Of a stretch of 49,225 nt of DNA, positions 19,763 through 48,117 are shown one piece after another (position 1 is the stretch's first letter; each line of letters begins with the position of its first letter). The DNA lies in the NCBI GenBank assembly GCA_937949965.1, contig CALFBF010000082.1, positions 1 through 49,225 on the forward strand, read 5' to 3'. A model generated the notes under the pieces. It had not been told where the DNA came from. It searched no databases and saw only the letters and a program-made list of their open reading frames with translations. The position numbers were made by a program, and so were the translations under genes. This stretch comes from an uncultured Roseibacillus sp. (lineage in GTDB: Bacteria; Verrucomicrobiota; Verrucomicrobiia; Verrucomicrobiales; Akkermansiaceae).

Positions 19763-22700
19763 TTATTTCAGGACACTGCCTTCCGCGGAAATAATGGAGA
19801 GAAAGAGAGCAAGCTCTGCTCGCTCGTCCGCGTTGGCGGCAGTGTTTGCATGGAAGTTGATACGTTCGATTAACTCTGTTCGTGCGCCTGAACTCACAAA
19901 TCCGTGCGCGAAGATGAGGTTTAAATGATCAACGAGCTCTTCTGCTCCTGTGCTAGATAATGCTTCCAATGGTCCCGTTTGTAGTTCGAAGTTAGGTGTC
20001 ACGCCGGGGAAGCTGGTATCGATGTGCATTCCGTTTTCGATAAAAGATAGCAGGCGGTTCGGGATGGTTGTGGTGGTGAGAGTGTTCATGATCTGAAACT
20101 CGGGACTCAAAAGATTATTGTCACGAATTTCGCCAGGACGACTAAAGCCCGGTTCGTAGAAGTTGAAAACCGAGGGTGCTTCAAACGGATATTCTAGGTA
20201 GTCAGAAAATACCCTTTCCTTTGCGGGGGACCAAAATTGAATTCCTGTATCATCAGCGAGGGCAGGAGTACTAGCGCCTGCATCCGTCGCACGAGCCATG
20301 TGGACGGTACGAAGCATAGGGCCTTTGAGACGACCTGAAGAAGTGTCGAGAGCGAAAGATAAATTTCTGGCTTCAGGATCGAGGAGGATCGCTTTGACGA
20401 CTGCTGCGAGGTTGCCCCGAGTGCCGGTACCATCGTCGACAAAAACATTCGAAACCCTCTCGAGATAGGCTGGAGTGGGGTTGGAAGTGACTAAGTGCTG
20501 GATGAGGTTTTTACAAATGAAAGGAGGACAGCTGGGATGGTTGAACAAGATGTCAACGGCATCGTCAACATCATCGAGCCCAGTTCGTCCAGGCTCATCG
20601 ACGAAGCGCGGCAACTCGTGACCGAGGAAGCGCTTTCTGCCCGCTTCAGCGAGAGGTTCGAGGACGCCATTAACTTCTCTTTGGTAGACAGAGGCCAAGA
20701 AGTCGTTGCCGTCATCGTGGAAGCTTTCCACCATGTTCATGGGGGCGGTGGAATAGATGGCCCGTCCTCTGACCCCAGGTTGAGCATTCAAGCCAGTGAA
20801 GACGCGAGCGACTTGAGTGATGTCCTCATTGGTGTAAGTGGGAATGGGTTCTCCGTCTGCGTCTAGCCTTTGCGTTCCATCTAAGTTGAGTTCCCAGAGG
20901 CCAATGGAGAATAACTGCATAATCTCGCGGGCGAAGTTCTCGTCAGGCATCTGGAGAATAGGCTCTCCGCCGGGGGCTGTTCCTACTTGGACTGCTCTTT
21001 CGTTCCCGATGTGAGAAAGCCAGAAGCCCATCCAAGGGTGAACGGCAATATCGTAGAGCAGGTCGCGGTAGTTGCCGAGGGAGTGCTCAATGACGGTGTC
21101 ATACCAATCTGCGGCTGCGAGAGCGAAGCTGTTACAGCGAGGTCCGATGACCACAATTTGACTTAGAGCCCAAGCCATACGTTGGCGAAGCTGGTCATCA
21201 CCAAAGAGCATAATCCGCATCCAACCGGTGTTAAGATTCTCTCGGAAGAAGGCGAAGCTACTGTTGTTCGAGATGAAGTGGGGGAGACTGTTCCTATTAA
21301 GCGTGATATCATTAGCACGACGAGATGCGAGGTAATCCATGTAGGTTCGCGTGAAGTTGGCAGGAATGGCGATTTGTTGATCGATCCACTGCTCATAGGC
21401 ATCATCTCCAAGTGCTTGCAGCGACGCGATAGAGGTAGTGGTTGGTCCCCATGTTGCTTGCGCTAGGAAGCGGCTAGCATTCTCGCTTGAAGGAACCCCT
21501 GCGGTACTTGTTCCAAAGAATCCTCCTTGAGGATTTCCCCCAGCGACGAGATTGGTGAACTGTTGCAGATCTCCTCCAGAGCCGAAGCTTCTGACACTGG
21601 CGGGATTATTAATATCGTAGCCTAAATATTGTTCCAACAGATCTTCGAGGCCATCATTATCGGTATCAATATCTGGTAGGACTTTAATCCGGAAAAATTT
21701 GGTGTCGGGGGAGGAAATGCTGTCTACCGAATAAGTCATGGCCGAGGTGTCTGCCGAAGCGGTGATGACGGGGCCGAGGTCTTCCCAAGAATCGGGTTCT
21801 AAGGTCTCGGATGTTTCTGCTTGGTAACGCTTACCTGCTAGCGAAGAGAATGCGATCGTGAACTCGGTTGGAGGATTGGCGTCGGAGTCAAAGTTGACGA
21901 TTTTCAGTAACGAGCTTGCATCAAAGGGGTTGGTTCCCGCAATGGCTTCACTTTGATTACTAACTCCGTCTCCATCGGAGTCTGTATTGAATGGAAGAGA
22001 GGAAAGACCTGGGAAAAGGAGTTCCGCATAGTCAGGAGTCCCATTAGCGTTGATGTCGGCTTGTCCGAATGAAGGGGGGATGACGATCGGCAACCCAGTG
22101 ATGTTGGCAAATGCAGCTTCTTCCCGGGGGTCGGTGCTAATAAGAAAATTATCGAAGCTGACATTATAACCGTCGATTCCAGTATTGACTGCGCCAACCC
22201 CGATGTGATCTACGGAAGAATGGGTAGTTGTCGCGGTGAGATTGGGCACACCGAGTGAGGGGATGTCAGAAAGGGAGGGATTTATCCAGATTGCGACATT
22301 ATCGGAGTCAAGATCGAGGTCAATGCGAACTACAAGAAGAACGGTTTGGCCCGAAAAATCATCGGAGAGCGTCGCGCTTTGGTTTGCCGTTAGATCCCCA
22401 AGGTCATCTGACCAGAATAGTTCGGTGCTTCCCGCAGTGGAGTCAGGGCGGATTCCAAAACCAGGACGGGTTTCTAGAGTGAATATACCATCAGCAGTGG
22501 CACCATCGAGAGTGGCTGCCGCAGCGGATTGGCTGTCAGCTTGGAGTAAGATAGAAGCCCAAATCACTCCGGCATTGATTGGGGAAACTTCGTGGAATTG
22601 AGCACGGAACGCGTTATCTGCGCGAGTAATATTGACGCTTCTGGGAGTTGTGACCGTCGACGTGAAGGAGTAATTCGTTCCTAAAGGAGCGCTTAAATCG

Positions 22701-22882
22701 TTGGAGACAACGTCAGCCACGCTGGAACCAAGGGACCAACTACCAATGCTGTTTGGAGAATCGTCAGTTTGTTCGCGGAGGTTTCCGGCATTTAAGGAGT
22801 TAAAATCGAACTCGTATTCAGGATTCGCTAAAGCGAAACCGCCGATGGTAAACGAGGCAATTAAAATTAGATAAACTCTCAT
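19763..22882 (-). CDS. Large secreted DUF1800 protein with thrombospondin-3-like repeats
   Basis: Encodes 1039 residues. Signal peptide to about residue 19 (MRVYLILIASFTIGGFALA). Residues 20-250 look like a concanavalin/LamG-type beta sandwich. Calcium-type repeats follow at about 300-320 (DSDGDGVSNQSEAIAGTNPF) and about 405-423 (DTDNDGLEDLLEQYLGYD). The DUF1800 domain runs from about 468 (ENASRFLAQATWGPT) to the end, with RMAWALSQIVVIG and DENFAREIMQLFSIGLWELN. First gene of an operon with DUF1501 and the GspG-tail protein. Likely a cell-surface or secreted protein; the role of the DUF1800/DUF1501 pair is unknown. The leader (22883-23150) holds an inverted repeat CAATAATC/GATTATTG at 22937-22969. 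Confidence 0.9.
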   Translation of the reverse strand: MRVYLILIASFTIGGFALANPEYEFDFNSLNAGNLREQTDDSPNSIGSWSLGSSVADVVSNDLSAPLGTNYSFTSTVTTPRSVNITRADNAFRAQFHEVSPINAGVIWASILLQADSQSAAAATLDGATADGIFTLETRPGFGIRPDSTAGSTELFWSDDLGDLTANQSATLSDDFSGQTVLLVVRIDLDLDSDNVAIWINPSLSDIPSLGVPNLTATTTHSSVDHIGVGAVNTGIDGYNVSFDNFLISTDPREEAAFANITGLPIVIPPSFGQADINANGTPDYAELLFPGLSSLPFNTDSDGDGVSNQSEAIAGTNPFDASSLLKIVNFDSDANPPTEFTIAFSSLAGKRYQAETSETLEPDSWEDLGPVITASADTSAMTYSVDSISSPDTKFFRIKVLPDIDTDNDGLEDLLEQYLGYDINNPASVRSFGSGGDLQQFTNLVAGGNPQGGFFGTSTAGVPSSENASRFLAQATWGPTTTSIASLQALGDDAYEQWIDQQIAIPANFTRTYMDYLASRRANDITLNRNSLPHFISNNSSFAFFRENLNTGWMRIMLFGDDQLRQRMAWALSQIVVIGPRCNSFALAAADWYDTVIEHSLGNYRDLLYDIAVHPWMGFWLSHIGNERAVQVGTAPGGEPILQMPDENFAREIMQLFSIGLWELNLDGTQRLDADGEPIPTYTNEDITQVARVFTGLNAQPGVRGRAIYSTAPMNMVESFHDDGNDFLASVYQREVNGVLEPLAEAGRKRFLGHELPRFVDEPGRTGLDDVDDAVDILFNHPSCPPFICKNLIQHLVTSNPTPAYLERVSNVFVDDGTGTRGNLAAVVKAILLDPEARNLSFALDTSSGRLKGPMLRTVHMARATDAGASTPALADDTGIQFWSPAKERVFSDYLEYPFEAPSVFNFYEPGFSRPGEIRDNNLLSPEFQIMNTLTTTTIPNRLLSFIENGMHIDTSFPGVTPNFELQTGPLEALSSTGAEELVDHLNLIFAHGFVSSGARTELIERINFHANTAANADERAELALFLSIISAEGSVLK

Positions 22883-23150: not shown

Positions 23151-23840
23151 TTAGCTTTTTATGATCTTAAGTTCGGATTGGTGTAATTGGGGCTTTTTAG
23201 TTAGATTAAGAAATTCTTCCAAATAGTTCCAATGGAGGGTGTCTCCCGAGATTGAAAGATGGCTCCGTGACCAAGTCTGTGCGTCTGGCCGATTCATGCG
23301 CACCGTATAGGCAGAGGCAGTTTGATTACATCCATTTTGGTAAGCTGCTAGATCGCTTGTAGTCTCGAAGGCAGCGACGCGAGCAGCTTTAACTTCCTCG
23401 AAGTGATAAGAGGAGCTGGTCATCGGGAGCTGAGGCGAAAAGCTTTTAAGCTGATTGTCTTGCCAGCTGAAACCTTGCCGTGTGCCTTCTGCAAAAGCGA
23501 TTAGATCGAAGGGTCGGCAACCTGAGCAAAGGAGGGGAATTTGTTTGGAGAGCGCGGCGAGGCTGGTCACGTCACAAAGCTGATTCACCACTTTTCCACG
23601 GCTCTTAGTAGCAGTCGTCTGTGAAGTCTCGTGCCATCTGTTCAAGAGACAGATGATGAGTCCATGTTCATTAGCGAGCATCCAAGTGCCGCCGGCGTCG
23701 GGGTCGATGGGGCTAAGGTAGTTCGTGCCTTGGGGGCTACGGTGAAGGGAAGGAGGAAGCGCACGTCCTCGTGTTTTCAGTTCATCACGGTTGAAGAAGA
23801 TCTCTAGTTGATGGTCTTGTTGCCAAGTCAGGGTACACAT
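23151..23840 (-). CDS. NRDE/TANGO2-family protein
   Basis: Encodes 229 residues from the ATG at 23840. The frame is open 32 codons further up, but the family begins MC-T with Cys at position 2, and MCTLTW plus the NRDE motif (IFFNRDELKTRGRAL) fit exactly. DPDAGGTWMLANEHGLIICL is the next conserved stretch. TANGO2-like proteins have an Ntn-hydrolase-like fold with an N-terminal Cys; their cellular role is debated (haem handling and lipid links have been proposed in eukaryotes). It lies downstream of the terminator at 23931-23983 and is thus probably a separate transcription unit from the UGA-containing gene before it. Confidence 0.8.
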   Translation of the reverse strand: MCTLTWQQDHQLEIFFNRDELKTRGRALPPSLHRSPQGTNYLSPIDPDAGGTWMLANEHGLIICLLNRWHETSQTTATKSRGKVVNQLCDVTSLAALSKQIPLLCSGCRPFDLIAFAEGTRQGFSWQDNQLKSFSPQLPMTSSSYHFEEVKAARVAAFETTSDLAAYQNGCNQTASAYTVRMNRPDAQTWSRSHLSISGDTLHWNYLEEFLNLTKKPQLHQSELKIIKS

Positions 23841-23930: not shown

Positions 23931-23983
23931 AAACATCTAGCCTAGAGGTCTCCCTTACTTGGGAAACTCTGGTCTAGATGTTT
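23931..23983 (-). terminator. Strong terminator after the UGA-rich gene
   Basis: Outer stem AAACATCTAG (23931-23940) pairs perfectly with CTAGATGTTT (23974-23983); an inner imperfect stem (GGTCTCCC with GGGAAACTC region) closes on a short loop. On the minus strand the hairpin is followed by TTTTTTT (complement of the A run at 23927-23933). This fits a Rho-independent terminator for the gene at 24014-24319, showing that the UGA-containing frame lies inside one transcription unit. Confidence 0.8.
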
Positions 23984-24013: not shown

Positions 24014-24319
24014 TTAAGAAGGAGAATCCGTTCCGGCAGCGTCTTCGTCGGTAGTCGTTTCCTCACCGACCGGTGAGGTGGATTTGCTGTTTCATGTGCT
24101 CCCAGACTGGGAGTTGGTAGTTGAGCCTCACGTGCTCCCAGACTGGGAAGGGCTCGCAGATCCTCATGTGCTCCCAGACTGAGAGCTACCGCCAGACATT
24201 CATGTCGCGACTCCCATGGAAGGGAGAATCCACATTTGTGCTGCGAGGTAGACCCCTACCACTGCAACCACAGTTAGGATGCCACCGGTGGCACTCCCGT
24301 TTTGATTGTTCATCTTCAT
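24014..24319 (-). CDS. Putative small membrane protein with four in-frame UGA codons (candidate multi-selenocysteine protein)
   Basis: From the ATG at 24319 one frame runs 101 codons to TAA at 24016-24014, broken only by UGA at codons 40, 52, 64 and 76 (24202-24200, 24166-24164, 24130-24128, 24094-24092). Residues 1-39 are MKMNNQNGSATGG, a membrane segment (ILTVVAVVGVYLAAQMWIL) and PSMGVAT. Then come 12-codon units UMSGGSSQSGST, UGSASPSQSGST, UGSTTNSQSGST and a diverged fourth unit, and an acidic tail (TTTDEDAAGTDSPS). Shared residues differ between units mostly at third positions (GGA/GGC, TCT/TCA, TCT/TCC, ACA/ACG), which favours this frame over the other two. Each UGA has a hairpin 13-14 nt downstream. 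It lies 70 bp after a DoxX-type gene and ends at a strong terminator. If UGA is not decoded, the product is a 39-residue membrane peptide. No selenocysteine machinery is in the window, so decoding is inference. Confidence 0.55.
24061..24078 (-). promoter_or_regulatory. SECIS-like hairpin after the fourth UGA
   Basis: On the minus strand CCTCACC pairs with GGTGAGG (7 bp, all Watson-Crick) around a GGUC loop. It begins 13 nt after the UGA at 24094-24092. The stem sequence differs from the hairpins of units 1-3 while position and loop are kept, as expected if the structure is what is selected. Confidence 0.5.
24099..24113 (-). promoter_or_regulatory. SECIS-like hairpin after the third UGA
   Basis: Minus strand CTCCCA-GUC-TGGGAG: perfect 6-bp stem, GUC loop, beginning 14 nt after the UGA at 24130-24128. 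Confidence 0.5.
24135..24149 (-). promoter_or_regulatory. SECIS-like hairpin after the second UGA
   Basis: Minus strand TTCCCA-GUC-TGGGAG: 6-bp stem with one G-U pair, GUC loop, beginning 14 nt after the UGA at 24166-24164. The loop GU lies at positions 21-22 after the UGA, close to the position known for the E. coli fdhF SECIS. Confidence 0.5.
24170..24186 (-). promoter_or_regulatory. SECIS-like hairpin after the first UGA
   Basis: Minus strand GCTCTCA-GUC-TGGGAGC: 7-bp stem with one U-G pair, GUC loop, beginning 13 nt after the UGA at 24202-24200. Confidence 0.5.
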
Positions 24320-24389: not shown

Positions 24390-24806
24390 TTAAGCCTCCT
24401 TCTTGGCTTGGCACTTGAGATCAAAGCTCCAAGAACCAGCCCCTTTCCAGAGAATGAAAAGAGAAAGGAGAATAAGTATGATAGGGAGAGGCAGGGGAGG
24501 CTCGTCGGCCCAATCGTGCACCAGGTGTGTGTAGATTGCCATGCTCATTGCGGGAATGGTTAAAGCCGCTCCGATCCGAGCAAAGTAACCAGAAATCAAG
24601 AGTGCTCCAGCAAGAACCTGCATTACTGGCCCCACAATGGCATTGAGCTCTGGGAGAGGAATACCCGCTCCTCGCAGAATAGGTTCCAAAGGTGCCACCC
24701 CAACGAGATGCTGAATACCGATTCCTAAAAGTGGGAGTGCGATTAAAATTCGTGCGATTCCAGCTGATTTCAGGTTTGTAGTTTGTGTGATCAGTTTCAT
24801 GTTCAT
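24390..24806 (-). CDS. DoxX-family membrane protein
   Basis: Encodes 138 residues from the ATG at 24806 (TTG at 24812 is an alternative). It has four probable membrane segments: IARILIALPLLGIGIQHLV, then around AIVGPVMQVLAGALLISGY, ARIGAALTIPAMSMAIYTHL and PLPIILILLSLFILW. The pattern matches the small DoxX/DoxD-like family; related proteins join redox or thiol/sulfur chemistry at the membrane, but most are uncharacterised. The C-terminus KCQAKKEA is cytoplasmic-looking. It is 70 bp upstream of the UGA-containing gene on the same strand, with only a small CCTAC/GTAGG hairpin in between, so the two may be cotranscribed. It is divergent from rseP. Confidence 0.75.
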   Translation of the reverse strand: MNMKLITQTTNLKSAGIARILIALPLLGIGIQHLVGVAPLEPILRGAGIPLPELNAIVGPVMQVLAGALLISGYFARIGAALTIPAMSMAIYTHLVHDWADEPPLPLPIILILLSLFILWKGAGSWSFDLKCQAKKEA

Positions 24807-24901
24807 GGTCAAGACGCTCTAGTGGTTTATCTTATTCCACTTCTCGACTACAGCCTTGCGGAAAGCAATAAAATCGGGCACAGTCCCAAAGTTAAACAAC
24901 T

Positions 24902-47322: not shown

Positions 47323-48117
47323 GTGAATCGACTGGATACGACGTTTGAGAGCCTGCGGGCAGAGGGTAAGAAGGCCTTTGTAGCTTATGTGGCAGGAGGG
47401 GACCCGGACTTTGACCGTTCCTTGAATATTCTTTGCGAACTCGCAGAGGCTGGGGCAGATGTAATCGAGCTAGGCCTGCCTTTTTCCGACCCTTTGGCGG
47501 ATGGTATTGTGAACCAGATGGCCGCTGACCGCTCTCTCAAAGCGGGCGGTTCGACCCGAGGTTGTTTGGAGCTGATTCGTGAGTTTCGGAAAGATTATCA
47601 GACCCCGTTAGTCCTGTTCACTTATCTCAATCCCGTTTTCAGCTACGGTTATGAGCAGTTTCATCACGATGCCGCTGCGGCAGGGGCAGATGGGATTCTC
47701 TTGCTCGATCTCCCTCCTGATGAGGCCGAGAAGAATGCAGACTTGGCTAGTGGAAGAGGTCTGCACCATATCCAGCTTATTGCCCCGACGACTCCCGAGG
47801 AACGTGTTGCTCGTCTCGCAGATAGTGCGGAGGGATTCATCTACGCCCTTTCACGCACGGGGGTGACCGGTGCTCACGGTGCTCCTTCCGAAGGTATCGG
47901 GGAGACTGTGGCTCGGATTAAGGCCCATACTCAGGTCCCAGTATGCGTCGGCTTTGGGATCAACACTCCTGAGCAGGCCGCTCTTGTCGCCAGCGTCTCC
48001 GATGGCGTAGTAGTGGGTTCCGCGATTGTTAAAATTATTGAGAACAATGCTAAAGACCCAATGGTCGCCAAAAAGGTGGGAACTTTTGTGAAGACCTTAG
48101 TGGAGGCAATTCGCTGA
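47323..48117 (+). CDS. trpA: Tryptophan synthase alpha subunit
   Basis: Encodes 264 residues from the GTG at 47323 (the frame is open 20 codons further up, but the family starts MNRxDxxFxxLR, matching VNRLDTTFESLRAEGKKAFV). Catalytic Glu49 (VIELGLPFSDPLADG) and Asp60 are at the standard positions. It makes indole and glyceraldehyde-3-phosphate from indole-3-glycerol phosphate for the beta subunit. trpB is not in the window. Convergent with efp. Confidence 0.94.
   Translation: MNRLDTTFESLRAEGKKAFVAYVAGGDPDFDRSLNILCELAEAGADVIELGLPFSDPLADGIVNQMAADRSLKAGGSTRGCLELIREFRKDYQTPLVLFTYLNPVFSYGYEQFHHDAAAAGADGILLLDLPPDEAEKNADLASGRGLHHIQLIAPTTPEERVARLADSAEGFIYALSRTGVTGAHGAPSEGIGETVARIKAHTQVPVCVGFGINTPEQAALVASVSDGVVVGSAIVKIIENNAKDPMVAKKVGTFVKTLVEAIR

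Follow-up and report, generated by a model that had tools for sequence, protein, structure and literature searches.

Four in-frame UGA codons, each followed by a SECIS-like hairpin, in a small membrane protein gene of a Roseibacillus-like bacterium: a probable member of a bacterial selenoprotein family

How is a reading frame to be understood that is intact from start to stop except for four evenly spaced UGA codons? This question is raised by a locus in the window, i.e. the whole stretch of 49,225 nucleotides that we analysed, which comes from a Roseibacillus-like MAG of the Akkermansiaceae (Verrucomicrobiota; 2.73 Mb in 166 contigs, 90.6% complete). A first-pass annotation had described here a minus-strand frame from ATG 24319 to TAA 24014, broken only by UGA at codons 40, 52, 64 and 76, and had considered selenocysteine (Sec) or programmed readthrough as explanations. 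Translation bears out this description: TGA at these four codons is the only kind of break, the frame closes with the TAA and, with UGA read as Sec, the product (window:24014-24319:-) comprises 101 residues, MKMNNQNGSATGGILTVVAVVGVYLAAQMWILPSMGVAT*MSGGSSQSGST*GSASPSQSGST*GSTTNSQSGST*NSKSTSPVGEETTTDEDAAGTDSPS*, in the order hydrophobic segment (mean hydropathy 2.21 over 19 residues), LPSMGVAT-U, Ser/Gly/Thr-rich tail and acidic end. The features of the gene are as follows:

24014..24319, minus strand: predicted four-Sec selenoprotein gene (frame open bar four TGA; family conservation; purifying selection after the UGA among homologues)
24224..24280, minus strand: single transmembrane segment ILTVVAVVGVYLAAQMWIL, leading into the conserved LPxxGxxT-Sec motif (hydropathy, conserved core)
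24200..24202, minus strand: predicted Sec UGA 1, codon 40, the family-wide conserved position (61 homologues with UGA, one from a Sec-less genome with Cys)
24164..24166, minus strand: predicted Sec UGA 2, codon 52 (translation)
24128..24130, minus strand: predicted Sec UGA 3, codon 64 (translation)
24092..24094, minus strand: predicted Sec UGA 4, codon 76, counterpart of the second UGA in two-Sec relatives (translation, homologue comparison)
24092..24185, minus strand: tandem array of 36-nt cassettes of UGA plus SECIS-like hairpin (TRF: 36 bp, 2.6 copies, 79% matches)

Repeats may be misassembled and the MAG is a draft, so that a pseudogene or a tandem-repeat assembly artefact has to be considered, and the copy number of four does come from one assembly. 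Such an origin is nevertheless exceedingly unlikely, because the repeat copies differ from each other (79% matches) by mostly synonymous changes, the TAA stop and the terminator behind it are intact, and relatives, including type-strain genomes, carry the same gene with one or two UGA.

These relatives were collected by searching, at the protein level, 60 genomes of the taxonomic family, which found a frame with in-frame TGA in 25 of them (most with E below 1e-5) and a conserved core, YxxLQLWILPAxGxxT-U, and then by a profile of this core (YxxLQLWILPAxGxxT-site) run over all 260 genomes of the family. The profile gave 63 matches, 62 of them true members; the remaining one (G516, without TGA) was dropped, as it does not show the motif. 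In 61 of the 62 members the first site is TGA. The exception, MSDSKTKKSNSFLKQFGFVISIVAVYLLLTHWVLPALGVPTCASGACAVPTETVPPANLPITTGE from genome G015, has Cys (codon TGT) instead and runs 24 residues beyond the site; this genome possesses neither SelB nor SelD, and DoxX and TANGO2 flank the gene here just as they do in the window. Replacement of Sec by Cys where a genome lacks the machinery is a classical sign of a selenoprotein. All homologues, moreover, remain open in frame past the UGA. A scan of genomes of named species yielded 41 loci, most of them in MAGs of Akkermansiaceae / Verrucomicrobiales, plus two type strains with two-UGA versions, Roseibacillus persicicus KCTC 12988 and R. ishigakijimensis KCTC 12986. 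In both type strains, SelB has exactly the coordinates that it has in G024 and G034, two genus mates of the window, which places the window in their genus. Three loci (L128, L135, L158) belong to Obscuribacterales / Melainabacteria and have UGA at the same site in the motif U-M-S-R-x-C, the form U-M-S-R/G-x-C being common to the two phyla. SelB scores above the cut-off in two of these three Obscuribacterales genomes, the third having a second, partial match of 172 bits only. A search of 388 Verrucomicrobiota genomes across the phylum revealed no convincing member outside the taxonomic family; the only other match (G381, E 0.0015) was rejected, as it lies inside a 515-residue frame.

The members of the family are small (~55-125 residues), have one membrane helix and mostly contain one or two Sec; with four, the window gene has the most among the homologues examined. 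The first-pass annotation had known of no family with a Thr-Sec-Gly-Ser dodecapeptide repeat. A family of homologues does exist, whose conserved motif at the first site is Thr-Sec-(Met/Leu)-Ser-Gly; the Thr-Sec-Gly-Ser repeat of the window is a local expansion.

If the UGA codons are passed by the ribosome, the sequence behind them should bear the marks of coding. Close homologues, compared in six groups, have pN/pS values of 0.42-0.71 in this frame over the codons behind the first UGA. The other frames give higher values in nearly all comparisons, most of them around 1 or above, the exceptions being one group without contrast to the +1 frame and one small group with little contrast to the +2 frame. 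By this measure, purifying selection acts on this frame beyond the UGA. The end of the transcript points in the same direction:

23933..23983, minus strand: intrinsic-terminator hairpin with U tract, just past the TAA (-28.3 kcal/mol, z -6.1)

Since this element lies 3' of the TAA, transcription seems to run through the long frame and not to stop after the first UGA. The inverted repeat has T/A runs on both sides and is perhaps a terminator on both strands, before TANGO2. The true product could alternatively be a membrane peptide of 39 residues that ends at the first UGA, with the remainder untranslated and the hairpins serving otherwise; a single-pass peptide of that size is a plausible small protein, and most ribosomes may indeed stop at UGA 1. 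We consider this very unlikely in view of the selection on the downstream codons, the open frames of all homologues past the UGA, the 24 residues by which the Cys homologue extends beyond the site and the sharing of U-M-S-R/G-x-C between two phyla. In a few loci (L022, L026, L042, L020), the selenoprotein gene itself seems to be closed by a UGA that lies within, or immediately ahead of, the start of TANGO2 (ATGTGCACCCTGA) and has no SECIS hairpin; a Sec-UGA and a stop-UGA would then stand side by side in one gene in some Roseibacillus loci.

A Sec codon in bacteria is accompanied by a hairpin of the bSECIS type. A published model sets its loop size at 3-9 nt and its stem length at 4-16 bp, and requires G within the first two positions of the loop, a distance of 16-37 nt between UGA and loop, and an energy of -7.5 kcal/mol or lower (PMC13188914). 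Each of the four UGAs of the window is followed by such a candidate:

24170..24186, minus strand: SECIS-like hairpin 1, GCUCUCA-GUC-UGGGAGC, loop 20 nt past the UGA
24135..24149, minus strand: SECIS-like hairpin 2, UUCCCA-GUC-UGGGAG
24099..24113, minus strand: SECIS-like hairpin 3, CUCCCA-GUC-UGGGAG
24061..24078, minus strand: SECIS-like hairpin 4, CCUCACC-GGUC-GGUGAGG, of the family-wide GGUC-loop class (fold, class covariation)

In all four units the spacing from UGA to loop is 20 nt, the loop has 3-4 nt with G first and the stem has 6-7 pairs, which agrees with the model in loop, stem, G and spacing. Units 1-3 share (U/C)UCCCA-GUC-UGGGAG or a G-U variant of it, and unit 4 is no copy of these but a different hairpin at the same distance from its UGA. 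Taken as isolated stems, units 1-4 have energies of -7.7, -5.3, -7.3 and -11.3 kcal/mol, so that units 1 and 4 lie within the limit of -7.5 kcal/mol, unit 3 narrowly misses it and unit 2 clearly does. Whole folds of 41-47 nt range from -9.2 to -12.4 kcal/mol, not all on the same pairs; that of unit 4 (-12.4 kcal/mol) has a z of -2.44, and the 41-nt single-sequence folds of units 1-3 are not below those of shuffled sequences. Hairpins as good as units 1-3 follow 2-7% of all TGAs in the window, and one as good as unit 4 follows 0.3%. A search of the region with Rfam returned only sub-threshold chance matches to unrelated families.

As far as sequence comparison goes, it is conservation across genomes, and not the window hairpins alone, that raises the pattern far above chance. 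Among the homologues, hairpins of two loop classes, GGUC and CGGGN/AGGUG, lie 17-24 nt after nearly every Sec UGA. In the GGUC class (33 distinct sequences), 92.4% of cells are paired, and two-sided changes number 54 against 18.2 +/- 3.6 in shuffles, a count reached in 0 of 500 shuffles; with the partner slid by one base, pairing falls to 60.6% or less. The CGGGN/AGGUG class (26 sequences) is similar, with 95.5% paired and 32 two-sided changes against 10.6 when shuffled (0 of 500). The loop thus stays constant across homologues while the stems covary; as loop motif and position served to choose the segments, the choice is biased towards the loop but not towards the pairs of the variable stem. 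In Obscuribacterales, the same loop is likewise combined with new stems (CUGUUC-GGUC-GAACAG, CUGCUC-GGUC-GAGCAG). A few Roseibacillus homologues have interrupted stems and no perfect-stem hairpin.

The Sec reading also presupposes a host able to make and insert Sec. In the MAG, SelB (340.9 bits, above the curated cut-off), SelA (460 bits) and a tRNA-Sec (63.9 bits against a gathering score of 47) were found, the last with a UCA anticodon that can be read as TCA in the sequence. No SelD was detected in the MAG, which is 90.6% complete; the best matches were rejected as ThiL-like and PurM-like proteins. Most simply, this gap reflects incompleteness, since all three genus mates sampled possess SelD (365-374 bits), itself with an in-frame UGA. 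Within the family sample, SelD occurs in 29 of 60 genomes, and 28 of these 29 have one in-frame TGA in it, which indicates that Sec is in use in the clade. The SelD of these Akkermansiaceae (loci L111-L122) is itself a selenoprotein, with CGG-U-ASKL where inspected. In the same 60 genomes, SelB is present in 24 of 25 that carry the gene and in 6 of 35 that do not, G015 with its Cys being counted among the latter (Fisher p 7e-10, ignoring phylogeny). The sole gene-positive genome without SelB, G041, has a UGA-containing SelD and on that account probably also uses Sec. SelB without a family member in either search was noted in G014, G020, G022, G032, G049 and G057.

Several in-frame UGAs would also be compatible with a recoded genome, in which UGA means an ordinary amino acid (Trp or Cys), be it through a suppressor tRNA or a genome-wide change of code. 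The first-pass annotation had thought a code change unlikely, since UGA ends three intact neighbouring frames (7576, 31457, 48115), and this holds: UGA is the stop in all three, and the frame ending at 48115 is a clear trpA. Since the Sec-less relative, moreover, uses Cys, and such a decoding would leave both the hairpins and the co-occurrence with SelB without a reason, its probability is practically negligible.

Taken together, the Sec machinery genes, the UGA/Cys pattern of the homologues and the covarying SECIS hairpins support the reading of the four UGAs as Sec, and the window gene very probably encodes a bacterial selenoprotein with four selenocysteines. Of the conditions that the first-pass annotation had set as refuting, those accessible to computation did not overturn this reading. 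From established bacterial Sec biology, we would expect SelB to bind each hairpin and deliver Sec-tRNA, each UGA having its own predicted bSECIS within the next ~33 nt, and the ribosome to pass all four UGAs and terminate at TAA 24016-24014. Efficiency over four successive UGAs could be low, and truncated products may dominate. As to the origin of the array, genus mates have two UGAs, the first cassette with a CGGG(C/U/A) loop and the second with GGUC; in the window, units 1-3 are nearly copies of each other and the last unit falls into the GGUC class. The window gene may have grown out of an ancestor with two UGAs, like the gene of the genus mates, through tandem duplication of the first cassette of 36 nt. 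The period of 12 codons would follow from the addition of one cassette of UGA plus SECIS per duplication, as a bSECIS has to follow its UGA directly.

What the protein does has to be approached through its own motifs and through its neighbours, two of which flank it in the window:

23151..23840, minus strand: downstream gene of the TANGO2 (NRDE) family, probably starting with MCTLTW at 23840 (PF05742, 6e-11)
24390..24812, minus strand: DoxX family membrane protein, upstream (PF07681, 7.4e-10)

The gene immediately downstream is TANGO2 in the window, in R. persicicus, at the Cys locus of G015 and at many other loci, and DoxX lies upstream in the first three of these. At the loci of genus g12, a truncated globin (PF01152, 7e-25) is directly upstream on the same strand; among those tested (L036, L037, L040, L043, L126 and others), it was present in all but L033. 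The neighbours thus vary by clade (TANGO2, globin or neither), and a TANGO2 operon as universal partner was rejected, adjacency being confined to part of the loci and a terminator separating the genes in the window. Several other genes were noted in passing. In g9 loci, TANGO2 is followed by an ORF of ~354 residues that has no Pfam match and by eye resembles ATP-grasp (L138:3896-4957); in L109 such an ORF, joined to a VTT (DedA-like) domain, comes immediately after the selenoprotein gene. Also encoded in the window, at 19763-22882 on the minus strand, is a protein of 1039 residues that combines DUF1800 with a bacterial TSP3 repeat.

Within the protein, single-Sec members nearly always have Cys at +5 (U-x4-C), the Cys homologue is C-x4-C, and members without the +5 Cys mostly have a second hairpinned UGA instead (+5 Cys versus second Sec, 24:3 versus 6:28; Fisher p 1.9e-8, ignoring phylogeny). 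This pattern suggests a redox pair at the membrane surface in which a second Sec can replace Cys: the core Sec at the helix end would pair with the Cys five residues on or, where that is missing, with a further Sec. A membrane-tethered selenol redox protein is, as a statement of function, a guess that we make with considerable doubt. Judged by charge, the tail would preferably be exported in Roseibacillus-type members, whereas Lys-tailed members favour the opposite orientation.

Such a protein may supply electrons to, or accept them from, heme-handling partners encoded next door (TANGO2 or truncated globin). Bacterial TANGO2 (HtpA) has been reported to act in heme trafficking, touching cytochrome c maturation (PMC10470608), and a crystal structure of human TANGO2 points to a Cys Ntn hydrolase that binds heme nonspecifically (PMC13044924). 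With two unrelated heme-linked neighbours, a role in heme handling or oxidative stress is our best guess, albeit a rather uncertain one; the heme link is circumstantial, given that neighbour genes vary and that a terminator separates the gene from TANGO2 in the window. More broadly, and tentatively, these genes could represent a class of membrane-anchored multi-Sec redox peptides in Verrucomicrobiota and Obscuribacterales, whose cassettes multiply in tandem, one Sec each, and whose selenols serve as partner of TANGO2 or globin.

A different role would also be compatible with a selenoprotein. Animal selenoprotein P has a Sec-rich tail, of which four Sec in a low-complexity tail are reminiscent, and soft metals are bound tightly by selenolates, so that the multi-Sec tail could be a selenium store or carrier, or a trap for metals (Hg, Cu, As), rather than a redox relay. 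We hold this to be unlikely: most members have only one or two Sec, and the +5 Cys that single-Sec members nearly always possess fits redox better. In the loci examined, no selenium-transport gene adjoins the selenoprotein gene, and a copper protein lies nearby in one clade only, on the opposite strand.

The family appears, from profile and literature comparison, to be a previously uncatalogued bacterial selenoprotein family. Six members gave no Pfam or NCBIfam match near any curated cut-off; weak matches to VlpA, FEA1 and IL12p40 were compositional, due to the low-complexity tail, and far below cut-off. No matching entry was seen in Table 1 of the 2026 inventory of 119 families (PMC13188914), and the families of Haft and co-workers were compared through its listing and the NCBIfam search. 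Gene finders would easily miss such a family, because much of the peptide lies past a UGA. The window gene offers a natural system for studying how the bacterial ribosome gets past UGAs that follow one another at minimal spacing, and a probable selenoprotein here stands beside TANGO2, whose function is disputed (heme carrier, acyl-CoA binder or Cys hydrolase). The two-UGA versions in two cultured type strains bring tests within reach.

Among known systems, the SelB-decoded bSECIS selenoproteins, such as FdhF and SelD, are alike in combining a UGA with a stem-loop whose small loop opens with G/GU and lies 16-37 nt away, and in having SelA, SelB and tRNA-Sec in the genome, but they are redox enzyme domains, whereas the window protein is a small single-pass peptide. 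Animal selenoprotein P, a secreted protein with SECIS elements in the 3' UTR, is alike in having several Sec per chain; here, by contrast, each UGA has its own predicted SECIS within the coding region, and no sequence relation was seen (no Pfam match). TANGO2/HtpA is a frequent direct downstream neighbour and a separate protein, and the window selenoprotein is not a TANGO2. The YeeE/YedE thiosulfate transporter selenoproteins (GUxSG; PMC13188914) share Sec-x-Ser-Gly in a membrane protein, but they form the transporter family PF04143, and six members of the window family gave no Pfam match. Finally, nearly all prokaryotic families of the 2026 inventory have one Sec and a small subset two or three (PMC13188914), a maximum exceeded by the window gene, which has four predicted UGA plus SECIS cassettes end to end in one frame, 36 nt apart.
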